Source: Conexibacter arvalis (GTDB lineage Bacteria > Actinomycetota > Thermoleophilia > Solirubrobacterales > Solirubrobacteraceae). Taken from it: DNA of 64,000 nucleotides. A model generated the notes under the pieces. It was not told the DNA's origin. It was given only the letters and a program-made list of their open reading frames with translations, and made no database searches. This document shows positions 2,880 to 47,025 of this stretch, one piece after another (position 1 is the first letter of the stretch; each line of letters begins with the position of its first letter). The translations under genes and the position numbers were made by a program. The stretch is taken from NCBI RefSeq assembly GCF_014199525.1, contig NZ_JACHNU010000001.1, positions 970,182 through 1,034,181 on the forward strand. The letters run 5' to 3'.

Positions 2880-3806
2880 TCACCGCTCGCCGTGCGCCAG
2901 CGCCGCGCCGATCGCGGCCGCGACCCGCGCGGGCCGCTCCGTGACGTCGGCGTGCGTGAAGCGCAGCACGCGCCAGCCGCGCAGCTGGAGCGCGTTCGCC
3001 TTCTCGCGGTCGCGCTGGAAGGCGCGGCGGCCGCGGTGGAACGCCCAGCCGTCGCACTCGACGGCAAGCCCCGCCGCGCGCCAGACGGCGTCGACCTCGA
3101 CCCCCTCGATCGACGCGTTCAGCTCCGGCGCCGGCAGGCCGTGGTCGCGCACCACGGCGAGGAGCGCGATCTCCAGCTCGCTTCGCGTCAGCGTCGCGCC
3201 GGTGCGGGCGTAGTCGGCGATCGCCGCGCGCAGCCGCGCATGGCCTGCACCGGGGCGATGCGCGACCCGCTCCATCGCGGCGCGCAGCTCCCGCGCGTCG
3301 AGCCCACGCACCCGCTCCGCCTCCCCGAGCGCGTGCGCCAGCCGGTCGCGCGTGAGCACGTCGGCGAGGTCGACCAGCGTCCGCGCCACGGTCGTCACCG
3401 GGATCCCGGCGACGGCGGCGGCGTCGGCCGGCGTCACCCTCCTGCGCTCGTACACGCGCAGCGCCCCGCTCGCCGCAGCCGCTCGAGTCGGCGACGTGAC
3501 CTCGATCCGCCCTCCCGGCGCCCACCACCGTCCGATGCCGTGGAGACGAGCCGCGTCGCGGTGGCTCAGCACGGCTCCTCGTCCGCTCGCGAGCACGGCC
3601 GCGAGCCAGAAGCCGTCCTGCGTCAGCCTGCGATGCCCGGCGGCATAGACGCCACGATGGAGTTGGACGAGCGTGCCGCGCCGCAGCCGCGTCTCGATCG
3701 CCCCGCGGTTGAGGCCCGCCGCAAGCAGCTGTCTCCGCGACATCACCCCATACTGATCGTGCGCCAGCGCCGCGACGACCGGATCGATGGCGCTTTGTAC
3801 AGGCAT
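2880..3806 (-). CDS. AbiEi-like winged-helix plus DUF559 nuclease-like protein
   Basis: A 308-residue protein. Residues 1-60 resemble the N-terminal winged helix of type IV (AbiEi) antitoxins: SRRQLLAAG, then a GAIETRLRRG turn and LHRGVYA. The middle is alpha-helical. The C-terminal 110 residues match DUF559, a Vsr/endonuclease-like fold: LNASIEGVEVDAVW, LAVECDGWAFHRGRRAFQRDREK and GWRVLRFTHADV, giving candidate E, D and E/K active-site residues. This architecture is widespread in actinobacteria and its function is not known to me. No toxin gene (AbiEii) is adjacent. The start codon lies in the loop of a 37-bp inverted repeat, consistent with autorepression as known for AbiEi. Confidence 0.8.
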   Translation of the reverse strand: MPVQSAIDPVVAALAHDQYGVMSRRQLLAAGLNRGAIETRLRRGTLVQLHRGVYAAGHRRLTQDGFWLAAVLASGRGAVLSHRDAARLHGIGRWWAPGGRIEVTSPTRAAAASGALRVYERRRVTPADAAAVAGIPVTTVARTLVDLADVLTRDRLAHALGEAERVRGLDARELRAAMERVAHRPGAGHARLRAAIADYARTGATLTRSELEIALLAVVRDHGLPAPELNASIEGVEVDAVWRAAGLAVECDGWAFHRGRRAFQRDREKANALQLRGWRVLRFTHADVTERPARVAAAIGAALAHGER

Positions 3807-3824
3807 GTCCTGTACAGAGCGCCA
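3788..3824. promoter_or_regulatory. Inverted repeat over the start codon of the AbiEi/DUF559 gene
   Basis: Sixteen-base arms (3788-3803 and 3809-3824) pair at 15 of 16 positions around the 5-base loop CATGT. The core is TGTACAGG/CCTGTACA. Read on the minus strand, the loop is ACATG and contains the ATG of the gene. It may be an operator for the winged-helix domain of the gene product, or an mRNA hairpin presenting the start codon. Confidence 0.6.
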
Positions 3825-3853
3825 ATGATCGCCGGGCTCGCCCCCGGCGGGGC

Positions 3854-5596
3854 TCAGCCGGCGGTGAGGTCTTCGATGCGGCGGGGCTTGAAGGGGGCGG
3901 AGGGGGCGAAGAGGTCGAGCTCCTCGGGCGGCCGGGCGGCGCGGCGGGCGCCGATCTCGGCGAGCAGGCCGCCGCAGTAGCGGCCCTGGCAGCCGCCCAT
4001 GCCGGCCCGCGTGACGCGCTTCACCGCGCCGATGTGGCCCATGCCGGCGTCGAACGCCTCCTCCACGGCGCGCAGCGGGACGTTCTCGCAGCGGCAGACG
4101 GGCGTGTCGGGCGCGGCGAGCTGGTCGACCAGGCGGGGCGCCGCGTAGGCGGTCCAGAGCGCGTCCTGGAAGCGGCGCGCTCTCGCGTGCTCGCGCTCGG
4201 CCGACCGCTCGACGGCCGCCTGCGCCTCCGGCACGGTGCGGCCGAGGCTGCGGACGGCGTCGAGGCCGGCGAGCGTGCCGGCCGCCTGCGCGACGCGCGC
4301 TCCGCCGATCCCGCCGCCGTCGCCGACGACCCAGAGGCCGTCGACCGAGGTTCGACCCCGCGAGGAGCGCTCGACGACGAAGCCGCCCTCCTGCTTCGAC
4401 CAGCGGTGGGTCGCGCCGAGCGAGCGGGCCAGCTCGTTGGAGGGGAGGAAGCCGAAGCCGACGCAGACGGCGTCGACCTCGTAGCTCTTCTCGCTGCCGG
4501 GGACGGCGCGGCCGTCGGCGTCGATCTTCGCGACCGTCGCCCGCTCCACCCGGCCGTCGCCCTCGGCGCGCACCAGCGCGCGGCCGTGGAGCACGGGCAC
4601 CCGTCCGCGCGCGAGCGTCGCGCCGTAGCCGGCGCCCTGGACGATCAGGTCGGGGGCCGCGGCCGCCATCCGCGCCAGCGCCGGCGCACGGCGCGGGTCG
4701 GTCAGCCTGGCCAGCTCGGCGAGCGCGACGACCTTCGCGCCGCCGCGCACCAGCTCGGCGGCGACCTGCATGTTGAGCGGGCCGTTGCCGGAGACGAGCA
4801 CGCGGGTGCCGGGGGCGACCTGGTACGCGCGCAGCAGCGTCTGCGCCGCGCCGGTCGTGATCACGCCGGGGAGCGTCCAGCCGGGCAGCGGCACGCCGCG
4901 CTCATAGGCGCCGGTCGCCGCGATCAGCGCGCGGGGACGGAGCGTCAGGTCGCCGTCGGGCGTGGTCGCCAGCAGCTCGTCGACGGCGGGCGCGCCCCAG
5001 ATCTGGACGCCGGCGAGCAGCTCCACGCCGGCGGCGCGGGCGCGCGCGATCAGCCTGCGGCCCGAGCGGTACTGCGCGTCGAGGCGCCGCTCGTCGGAGA
5101 CGAGCGCCTCCGGCGGCTGCTTGTAGTACTGCCCGCCGAGCTTGGCACGCTCGTCGGCGAGGACGACGTCGAGCCCGGCCTCCGCGGCGGCGACGGCGGC
5201 GGCGAGCCCGGCCGGTCCCCCGCCCACGACGAGCAGGTCGCAGACGCGCTCGCGGGCCGGCGCGGGGGCGCCGGCCGTCTCCTCGTCGCGCGCGGCGAGC
5301 GCCGCGAGGTCGGGGCGCGCCGGCTGGTGCGCGACGGCCATCCCGTCGCGGACCGGCGTCATGCAGGCGCGGAAGCCGGGCTCGCCGTCGACCTCGACGA
5401 GGCACTCCTGGCAGACGCCCATCCCGCAGAAGATCCCGCGCGTGTCGCCGTCGATCGTCTCGCGGCAAGAGAGCTCGCCGGCGGCGACGAGCGCGGAGGC
5501 GACGGTGTCGGTCGCGCGCGCCTCCAGCCGCCGGCCGGCGAAGGTGATCTGGATCGTCTCGGGGGCGGCTTCGAGGCCGGTGCTGCGAATTCGCAC
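3854..5596 (-). CDS. Fused [2Fe-2S]/FAD oxidoreductase, opine/hydroxyproline dehydrogenase-like
   Basis: A 580-residue cytoplasmic enzyme joining two subunits that are usually separate. Residues 15-95 are a ferredoxin-like [2Fe-2S] domain with C57, C62, C65 and C78. Residues 117-460 are a pyridine-nucleotide-disulfide-type FAD domain beginning VVGGGPAGLAAA. The C-terminus is a BFD-like [2Fe-2S] domain with CRCEN and GGCQGRYC. This corresponds to the gamma plus alpha subunits of opine oxidase, hydrogen cyanide synthase (HcnA, HcnB) and D-hydroxyproline dehydrogenase. A DAO-type beta subunit that would oxidise the substrate amine is not adjacent, so partner and substrate are unknown. The start is GTG at 5596. 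It is divergent from the IclR gene, which probably regulates it. Confidence 0.82.
   Translation of the reverse strand: MRIRSTGLEAAPETIQITFAGRRLEARATDTVASALVAAGELSCRETIDGDTRGIFCGMGVCQECLVEVDGEPGFRACMTPVRDGMAVAHQPARPDLAALAARDEETAGAPAPARERVCDLLVVGGGPAGLAAAVAAAEAGLDVVLADERAKLGGQYYKQPPEALVSDERRLDAQYRSGRRLIARARAAGVELLAGVQIWGAPAVDELLATTPDGDLTLRPRALIAATGAYERGVPLPGWTLPGVITTGAAQTLLRAYQVAPGTRVLVSGNGPLNMQVAAELVRGGAKVVALAELARLTDPRRAPALARMAAAAPDLIVQGAGYGATLARGRVPVLHGRALVRAEGDGRVERATVAKIDADGRAVPGSEKSYEVDAVCVGFGFLPSNELARSLGATHRWSKQEGGFVVERSSRGRTSVDGLWVVGDGGGIGGARVAQAAGTLAGLDAVRSLGRTVPEAQAAVERSAEREHARARRFQDALWTAYAAPRLVDQLAAPDTPVCRCENVPLRAVEEAFDAGMGHIGAVKRVTRAGMGGCQGRYCGGLLAEIGARRAARPPEELDLFAPSAPFKPRRIEDLTAG
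5584..5595. promoter_or_regulatory. Palindrome TGCGAATTCGCA, probable IclR operator
   Basis: A perfect 12-bp palindrome overlapping the GTG start of the oxidoreductase gene and facing the divergent IclR gene. A close relative, TGCGAACCTTCGCA, lies between the aminotransferase and semialdehyde dehydrogenase genes at 14083. Regulator assignment is inference. Confidence 0.45.
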
Positions 5597-11414: not shown

Positions 11415-12578
11415 TCAGCTCGTGACGGCGCACATCAGCGTCTCGCGCGCGGCGACGCGGACGCGGACGTGGCCGCTCAGGTCGTGGTCGAGGTCTGGGT
11501 CGCCGGTGTCGACGCGCAGCTGCGGCGGGTCGAGCGCGAGCAGCTTGCGGCGGTCGGCGACGACGGTGATGCGGGAGCGGTCGACGCGGCGCAGGACGGC
11601 CGGCGACAGCGGCTGGTTGCCGCGCCCGAGCAGGCTGCCCTGGCCGCCGACGACGCCGAGCACGAGGTGGGCGGCGGGCGGCGCGCCGGGGGCGGCGGGC
11701 GTTTCGGCGGTCGCGCCGGCTCCGGCGGTCGCGCCGGCGAGCAGCGCGAGCAGCTCGGCCTCGGTCGCGTCGCGGGCGACGAGCCGGCCGTCGCGGGCGG
11801 CGTCGACGCCGCGCAGCGACGGCTCGAGGCCGAGCGCGCGCTCGATCCGGGCGGTCGTCGTGCCGGGGCCGAAGAGCGTCAGCGCCGCCGGGTCGACCTC
11901 GGCGGCGACGCGGGCGCAGGCGGCCTCCAGCGCGCCGTCGCCGCCGCCGGCCGAGGCGGCCTTGGGCCCGAGCCGGCAGCCGGGCGCGCGCGGCACGAGC
12001 GCGACGCCGTGGAGGACGGTCGAGAGCGGCGCGCGGTCGGGAGCTGCGTCGATCTGCCTACCGCTGCGGTAGGCAGATCGACGCAGCTCGGTGTCGGCGG
12101 GCTCGGCCGCGTCGGCGATCTCGGCTTCGGTCAGCGCGTGCGGGCCGGGGTCGCGCAGGTAGGCGGCGGCGGCCTCGCCGGCCGCCTCCGGGGTGGCGCC
12201 GAAGCAGGCCGAGTGCATCTTCACGCCGGCGGGGATCCCAAGGATCGGGACGCGGCTGTCGGCGGCGGCGCTGACGTCGCGCGCGGTCCCGTCGCCGCCG
12301 GCGAAGAGGATCAGGTCGACGCCCGCGGCGGCGAGCGCGGCGGCCGCGGCGCGGGTCTGGGCGGCGCTGCCGGGAGTGGGGACCTCGACGACCTCCAGCT
12401 CCGCCGGCGCGCGCTCGGCCAGCCGCGCGAGCGCGCGCCGGGCGCGCTCGGCGGCGACGGGGACCGCGCCGCGCTCGAGCGCGCGGTGCAGCAGGTCGGG
12501 ACCGTCGGTCCCCTTCAACCCGACGCGCCCGCCCATGCCGGCGATCGGGTTGACGATCACTCCGACGCGTCGCGTCAA
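11415..12578 (-). CDS. ATP-NAD kinase family protein (AcoX-like)
   Basis: A 387-residue protein. The N-terminus GVIVNPIAGMGG and the FAGGDGTARDV motif are those of the NAD kinase/diacylglycerol kinase fold; GIPAGVKMHS is typical of the AcoX-like subgroup found beside acetoin and other catabolic dehydrogenase genes. The role of AcoX-like proteins is not settled; NAD phosphorylation or another small-molecule kinase activity is possible. A perfect 49-bp palindrome (12041-12089) is embedded in frame and encodes a charged segment around RSAYRSGRQID, probably an inserted surface loop. The gene lies between the aminotransferase (79 nt upstream) and gcvPA (10 nt downstream). Confidence 0.82.
   Translation of the reverse strand: MTRRVGVIVNPIAGMGGRVGLKGTDGPDLLHRALERGAVPVAAERARRALARLAERAPAELEVVEVPTPGSAAQTRAAAAALAAAGVDLILFAGGDGTARDVSAAADSRVPILGIPAGVKMHSACFGATPEAAGEAAAAYLRDPGPHALTEAEIADAAEPADTELRRSAYRSGRQIDAAPDRAPLSTVLHGVALVPRAPGCRLGPKAASAGGGDGALEAACARVAAEVDPAALTLFGPGTTTARIERALGLEPSLRGVDAARDGRLVARDATEAELLALLAGATAGAGATAETPAAPGAPPAAHLVLGVVGGQGSLLGRGNQPLSPAVLRRVDRSRITVVADRRKLLALDPPQLRVDTGDPDLDHDLSGHVRVRVAARETLMCAVTS
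12041..12089. repeat. Perfect 49-bp palindrome inside the kinase-like gene
   Basis: Two perfectly complementary 24-base arms (12041-12064 and 12066-12089) flank a single T at 12065. The arms begin GAGCTGCGTCGATCTGCC and continue TACCGC. It is read through in frame by the minus-strand gene. No second copy was seen in the window. Confidence 0.9.
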
Positions 12579-46679: not shown

Positions 46680-47025
46680 TGGGTTCCTTTCGGGGTTGGA
46701 CTCGGTGCCGGGCGTCGGAGGAGCCGGACCGATCCGGTCGTCTGTCGTGATCTCGCACGTCGGTTGGGAATGCGCCCCGTCCGCTTCGGACGACGACGCT
46801 GGTGTGTCGCGCGAGGTCGCGCGCGCCTTCCGCTCTGCAGCATGGTTGACGTTCGTAGGCCTCCCGTTCCAACCAGGGTGCATCGCGGAAGGCGCGTGGT
46901 GCGCGATGCGGCACTGGCACCCTGCCGTCCCTCGTGTGAGTTCTTCAGTACAACTGAAGGACTTGTACACTATCACTACTTCACGATGCGGTATGGACCG
47001 CGTTGGTGGGCAAGGGAGGGACGCA
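46680..47025. other. 346-bp divergent regulatory region
   Basis: Between npdG and the first cupin gene. No coding character on either strand. It holds the CTTCAG palindrome at 46943 and several TA-rich stretches (TTGTACACTATCAC near 46963) that are plausible -10 elements for the plus-strand operon. Confidence 0.6.
46943..46959. promoter_or_regulatory. CTTCAG-TACAA-CTGAAG operator candidate
   Basis: Perfect 6-base arms, followed 5 nt later by TACACT, a -10-like hexamer. It lies about 70 nt before the cupin start. Related CTTCAA palindromes precede the DapA-type gene and the polyamine-type ABC operon. Confidence 0.5.

Follow-up and report, generated by a model that had tools for sequence, protein, structure and literature searches.

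Why should the start codon of a gene lie within the loop of a long inverted repeat? This question is raised by a gene for a nuclease-like protein in a 64,000-nucleotide stretch of Conexibacter arvalis DNA (C1:970182-1034181 of the 5.2-Mb source genome, G000), all of which is hereafter called the window. A first-pass annotation proposed that the repeat might be the autoregulatory site of a toxin-less AbiEi protein fused to a nuclease-like domain. Our analysis leads to a broader proposal, wherein the palindrome is probably the recognition element of a small element made of the nuclease gene and its own private palindrome. More tentatively, such elements might represent a new class of mobile palindrome, in which each nuclease would bind and cut only its own palindrome and copy it to new sites, with palindrome and protein specificity diverging together to yield several independent families per genome. 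The features of the window on which this proposal is built are the following.

3782 to 3830, no strand assigned: family-A palindrome, 49 bp, with arms of 22 nt and a loop of 5 nt, as seen from pairing, folds, and nine genome copies; it encloses the repeat annotated earlier at 3788-3824.
3804 to 3806, minus strand: ATG start codon of the AbiEi-nuclease gene, within the palindrome loop (3804-3808) and the sole in-frame start codon before the AbiEi_4 domain.
2880 to 3806, minus strand: AbiEi-nuclease gene, 308 amino acids, comprising a predicted AbiEi-type DNA-binding part (residues about 11-212) and a Vsr/DUF559/MTES_1575 nuclease (228-303), based on profile matches, an AlphaFold2 model, and invariant residues.

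The inverted repeat is confirmed and far exceeds what chance would produce. Its arms at 3788-3803 (TGGCGCTTTGTACAGG) and 3809-3824 (CCTGTACAGAGCGCCA) form Watson-Crick pairs at 15 of 16 positions, precisely as first described, with the single exception being T.G on the plus strand, and the pairing continues outward to 3782-3830. The loop reads CATGT and holds the minus-strand ATG at 3806-3804. From the in-frame stop that lies 1,098 nt upstream up to the AbiEi_4 domain, there is no other in-frame ATG, GTG, or TTG. RNA folding of positions 3740-3870 gives a z score of -4.6, which none of 200 shuffles equaled, and DNA folding of 3782-3830 gives -7.6 on the plus strand and -7.1 on the minus strand. 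By hairpin score, the only equal of the palindrome in the window is the one at 12041-12089; five Markov controls all stayed below 16. No match between the window palindrome and an Rfam family was found.

The fusion of AbiEi to a nuclease, likewise anticipated by the annotation, is well represented in the encoded protein. Residues 11-212 match AbiEi profiles (PADLOC AbiEi at 4e-24 over residues 12-190), and residues 228-303 match MTES_1575/DUF559, which has been described as a Vsr-type restriction endonuclease (PMC3710099). Because a sequence search of the PDB gave no convincing relatives, we turned to structure comparison with an AlphaFold2 model (predicted local distance difference test, pLDDT, of 90). 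Foldseek matches the model to AbiEi (6y8q; E 1e-5) and Rv2827c (1zel), and its C-terminal domain resembles the catalytic domain of I-Bth0305I (3r3p; TM score 0.80 over the target) and, more weakly, Vsr (1cw0, 1vsr). The catalytic-type residues E212, D239, E250, H257, and D266 are invariant in 34 homologs, and therefore the nuclease domain is probably active. No AbiEii nucleotidyltransferase toxin gene adjoins the gene, whose neighbors encode an ABC-transporter permease and a sarcosine-oxidase-alpha-like protein. Given the AbiEi fold, the fused nuclease, and the lack of a toxin gene alongside, it is plausible that the repeat is bound by the product of its own gene.

The window palindrome is not confined to this gene. 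A pattern search of G000 for TGTACAGG-N5-CCTGTACA yields four exact and five one-mismatch copies with similar 49-bp extents, and a covariance model recovers the same nine places at E < 1e-12 while giving nothing comparable in 60 relatives. The possibility that the palindrome is a unique autoregulatory operator was rejected on account of the eight further copies. We also rejected the idea that the palindrome serves as operator for an unrelated regulator that controls a wide regulon, given that an exact scan for the same pattern in 84,980 genomes, from which records near the source genome were excluded, gave scattered matches only, none titled as a close relative. One family-A helix position swaps among G-C, C-G, and T-A together with its partner, with covariation greater than in all 500 shuffles, and compensatory stem pairs are seen in both this family and a second one, family B, which occupies 13 places in G000 and none in the 60 relatives. 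These compensatory changes could stem partly from template-switch repair of palindromes instead of selection. The loop sequence ACATG/CATGT recurs in family-A copies that start no gene, and judged by these copies alone the ATG in the loop may be a coincidence.

Families A and B are part of a larger pattern. G000 encodes eight AbiEi-DUF559 (Vsr-like nuclease) paralogs, each of which has its own, different palindrome of approximately 45-53 bp, either covering its start or lying no more than about 60 nt from it. For seven of these, the start palindrome also occurs as dispersed copies, with family A matching the window gene, B matching L006, C L007, D L008, E L002, F L003, and G L004. The eighth paralog, L005, has no dispersed match in the sampled part of G000. 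Pairing was assessed in sampled DNA of G000 (1.26 Mb) and of its congener G003 (0.8 Mb), with the cut-off set above the best reversed-sequence null score. Among 27 assignable palindromes (including three at gene starts and one weak assignment to family E), all 23 from G000 match G000 paralogs, all four from G003 match G003 paralogs, and none match across genomes. Furthermore, protein similarity and palindrome similarity are correlated (Mantel r 0.42, p 2e-4).

Beyond family A, several of these dispersed families, with palindromes of 43-53 bp, came to light when sampled DNA was searched de novo for hairpins. Similarly built palindromes at L110 (1501-1553), L115 (1501-1554), and G000:C1:386168-386218 match those of the eight paralogs weakly or not at all, and their nuclease genes may have been lost or be more divergent. 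Long palindromes are likewise present at G003:C1:3257053, 3461848, and 3117004 (in L173, L184, and L166), two of them with GGTCGTCCTGG. They match none of the three closest G003 paralogs, and more distant paralogs may exist in that genome.

The repeat is also found at the starts of homologs, which is the comparison that the first-pass annotation had recommended. A strong start hairpin, defined by a hairpin score of 10 or more close to the start, accompanies 19 of 24 genus homologs as opposed to 94 of 1,916 control gene starts (4.9%; Fisher 3e-20). Start hairpins are thus a property of this gene family in the genus. Approximately nine of the homologs (eight identified by script and L002 by eye) carry an in-frame ATG in the loop, which demonstrates that this arrangement is not a one-off. 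Many others probably start 10-20 nt before the palindrome, such that the palindrome is translated. Just upstream of the palindrome, L191, L197, L198, L201, L204, and L206, mainly genes with an ATG in the loop, share the motif GGGGCGAA, and other homologs carry a GGCACGAT-like motif ahead of an ATG upstream of the palindrome. These are possibly two promoter types. One of these homologs, L204 (G006:C28:17495-18382), has an in-frame TGA within its match and is possibly decaying.

Some of the genes are flanked at both ends. In five genus genes (L002, L003, L004, L006, and L205), a second cognate palindrome directly follows the stop codon, and an independent pattern search for family B recovers both copies around L006 (C4:193288 and C4:194251). 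The distantly related G076, from the same phylum, shows the same arrangement; there, a gene at 412246-413121 for a homolog with 33% identity lies between near-identical palindromes at 412139-412188 and 413172-413219. Half or whole copies of this palindrome occur at thirteen more places in G076 (overlapping matches merged by hand) and were not found in seven other genomes searched. Two half-palindrome matches at G076:C1:1850515 and 1851350 are 835 bp apart, and this pair might mark the ends of a further gene or of a unit that has decayed. Strong upstream palindromes also accompany the distant homologs L227, L231, L233, and L235.

The locations of the dispersed copies bear on their function. Gene contexts were called by a simple codon-usage script and may be wrong in individual cases. 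A hand count of the intergenic non-self copies in G000 gives 24, of which 11 reside between convergent genes, as compared to 84 of 576 gaps (p 2.5e-4), and three occupy divergent (promoter) gaps. Many dispersed copies are 1-8 bp from a stop codon, and four fall within called reading frames. The hairpin in the window that equals the start palindrome is among the copies located in genes:

12041 to 12089, no strand assigned: family-D palindrome, 49 bp, with 23-nt arms that pair perfectly; it is a dispersed copy of the paralog L008 (G000:C7:31183-32028) palindrome and sits in frame in an ATP-NAD-kinase-like gene.
11415 to 12578, minus strand: the ATP-NAD-kinase-like gene that holds this palindrome, annotated by resemblance.

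The segment of the kinase-like gene carrying the palindrome is missing in two homologs and is unrelated sequence in a third, and another in-gene copy lies in an Ala/Pro-rich stretch of a CydDC-like gene. The copies are species-specific. At C7:16853, relatives retain the junction between convergent thiolase and SDR genes with 84-93% DNA identity and all lack the palindrome, and in G005 the two genes nearly touch. We read the C7:16853 palindrome as a species-specific gain.

Among the alternatives, the one that best withstands these observations is that the palindromes are binding sites only, such that each paralog represses its own gene, the dispersed copies are a regulon or decoys, and nothing is mobile. 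AbiEi and Rv2827c do repress their own operons through inverted repeats (PMC7319586), and the location at gene starts and the co-divergence of palindrome and protein would be expected of such sites. However, copies found mainly after stop codons and between convergent genes, seldom in divergent gaps, and sometimes within reading frames are poorly placed for this role. Moreover, the outer stem positions vary with compensation, which base-specific binding to double-stranded DNA does not require, and the copies are restricted to single species. We therefore consider this explanation unlikely. The autoregulatory role originally proposed for the window repeat is plausible insofar as binding by the gene product is concerned. 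As a pure operator it is insufficient, because there is a dispersed family, a separate palindrome for each paralog, copies far from any such gene, and flanking at both ends.

Less probable still is the notion that the palindromes are bidirectional terminators or stabilizers of mRNA 3′ ends that were multiplied by gene conversion, with only an incidental link to the nucleases. The hairpins are very stable, exhibit compensatory changes, and often lie just after stop codons and between convergent genes. However, an intrinsic terminator combines a stable hairpin with a T tract, and no T tract is present on either side of the window hairpin or the family-A copies. Copies inside genes and in divergent gaps are also out of place for terminators, the same convergent gene pair works without a palindrome in relatives, and the one-to-one pairing with nuclease paralogs and the flanking of their genes would be left unexplained. 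A hairpin RNA switch that controls translation of the nuclease gene, with dispersed copies as by-products, is very improbable, for although the ATG in the loop and the RNA fold of the start region are in keeping with it, most homologs have their likely start outside the loop, the gene strand in the window folds less well than the opposite strand, no known RNA family is matched, and the dispersal is unexplained.

The closest parallel is with repetitive extragenic palindromic (REP) sequences and REPINs and their RAYT (TnpA-REP) partners (PMC3733652, PMC3116915, PMC8266576). Both systems feature short, dispersed, species-specific palindromes located mainly after genes or between convergent genes and sometimes inside genes, together with a dedicated gene flanked by the same palindromes (here at the 5′ end of most genes and at both ends of L002, L003, L004, L006, L205, and the G076 gene). 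In contrast, the partner here is an AbiEi-Vsr-like nuclease rather than a tyrosine transposase, the palindromes are longer (approximately 45-53 bp against 20-40 bp), and the palindrome extends over the gene's start codon. By eye, the flanks of the nine family-A copies share no tag such as GTAG or CGTC beside the stem. Membership in the REP/RAYT group was rejected because G000 has no Y1 transposase; no PF01797 (HUH/Y1 transposase) match was found there, whereas control genomes did match. Because the pairing, flanking, and species-specific copies parallel REP/RAYT in a genome without a Y1 transposase, the cognate nuclease is the obvious candidate for the agent of dispersal. Under the tentative mobile-palindrome reading, each nuclease would do for its palindrome what RAYTs presumably do for REPs, but by unrelated, homing-endonuclease-like chemistry.

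Other known systems share portions of this arrangement. The type IV antitoxins AbiEi and Rv2827c have the full AbiEi-like fold and inverted repeats at the start of their own gene (PMC7319586, PMC3985639), but here no AbiEii toxin gene adjoins, a nuclease domain is fused on, one hairpin-forming palindrome of about 49 bp replaces their two 23-bp repeats, and copies are dispersed over the chromosome. The EDxHD homing endonuclease I-Bth0305I and Vsr share the C-terminal fold and catalytic-type residues, but the nuclease here is fused to AbiEi and accompanies a palindrome rather than residing in an intron or split gene, and the palindromes occupy unrelated sites. Palindromic elements of Rickettsia are likewise found in frame within protein-coding genes, but they are longer than the palindromes described here and have no known dedicated nuclease gene.

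The proposed nuclease-palindrome element builds on what was directly observed, namely the association, the one-to-one pairing, the species specificity, the single empty junction, the flanking at both ends, and the conserved catalytic residues. Its gene would encode an AbiEi-like winged-helix protein joined to a Vsr/homing-endonuclease-like nuclease and would carry its own palindrome at the 5′ end, in many cases covering the start codon, with a second one in some cases immediately behind the stop codon. The AbiEi part might bind the palindrome as two inverted half-sites and repress its own gene, and such autorepression through the start palindrome is likely by analogy to AbiEi and Rv2827c, which are autorepressors that bind inverted repeats within their promoters (PMC7319586). 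The nuclease may then nick or cut the palindrome, perhaps when it is extruded as a hairpin, and thereby drive its copying. Copies would be non-autonomous repeats that spread within their own genome and settle for the most part behind stop codons or between convergent genes, and each paralog would diverge jointly with its own palindrome. Solo copies may also come from recombination between two flanking palindromes that deletes the gene.

Several observations weigh against this proposal. No hairpin could be detected in two of the 24 genus homologs, and in distant families the majority of the homolog starts examined are without a palindrome. A control region further upstream also tracks protein similarity, albeit less strongly (r 0.24, p 0.002). 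An empty junction was resolved only at C7:16853, where insertion and loss are told apart by parsimony alone, and no target-site duplication or fixed target was seen at the family-A copies. Finally, we know of no Vsr-like nuclease that moves DNA to unrelated sites.

Elsewhere in the window, a hairpin at 46934-46968 is richer in A/T than its GC-rich surroundings and is unrelated to the palindrome families of the AbiEi-nuclease genes.

Genes for DUF559/AbiEi fusions are present in 35 of 296 sampled genomes (E 1e-25) and recur in many actinobacterial genomes, and no plasmid-borne relatives were found at 1e-15. The fusion genes are currently annotated as antitoxin-like or of unknown function. In the open-access literature searched, which did not extend to subscription papers or preprints, we found no description of palindromes tied to these genes, and the element appears to be a small mobile or self-targeting piece of DNA of a type not yet described. 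Palindromes beside AbiEi-DUF559 genes should be treated with caution and not taken for unique operators. Linking each fusion gene to a private, dispersed palindrome would give these genes a testable function and would provide a readily read set of protein-DNA specificity pairs, with eight in one genome. If the palindromes are indeed mobilized by their nucleases, they would represent a second, chemically unrelated solution to the problem solved by REP and RAYT.
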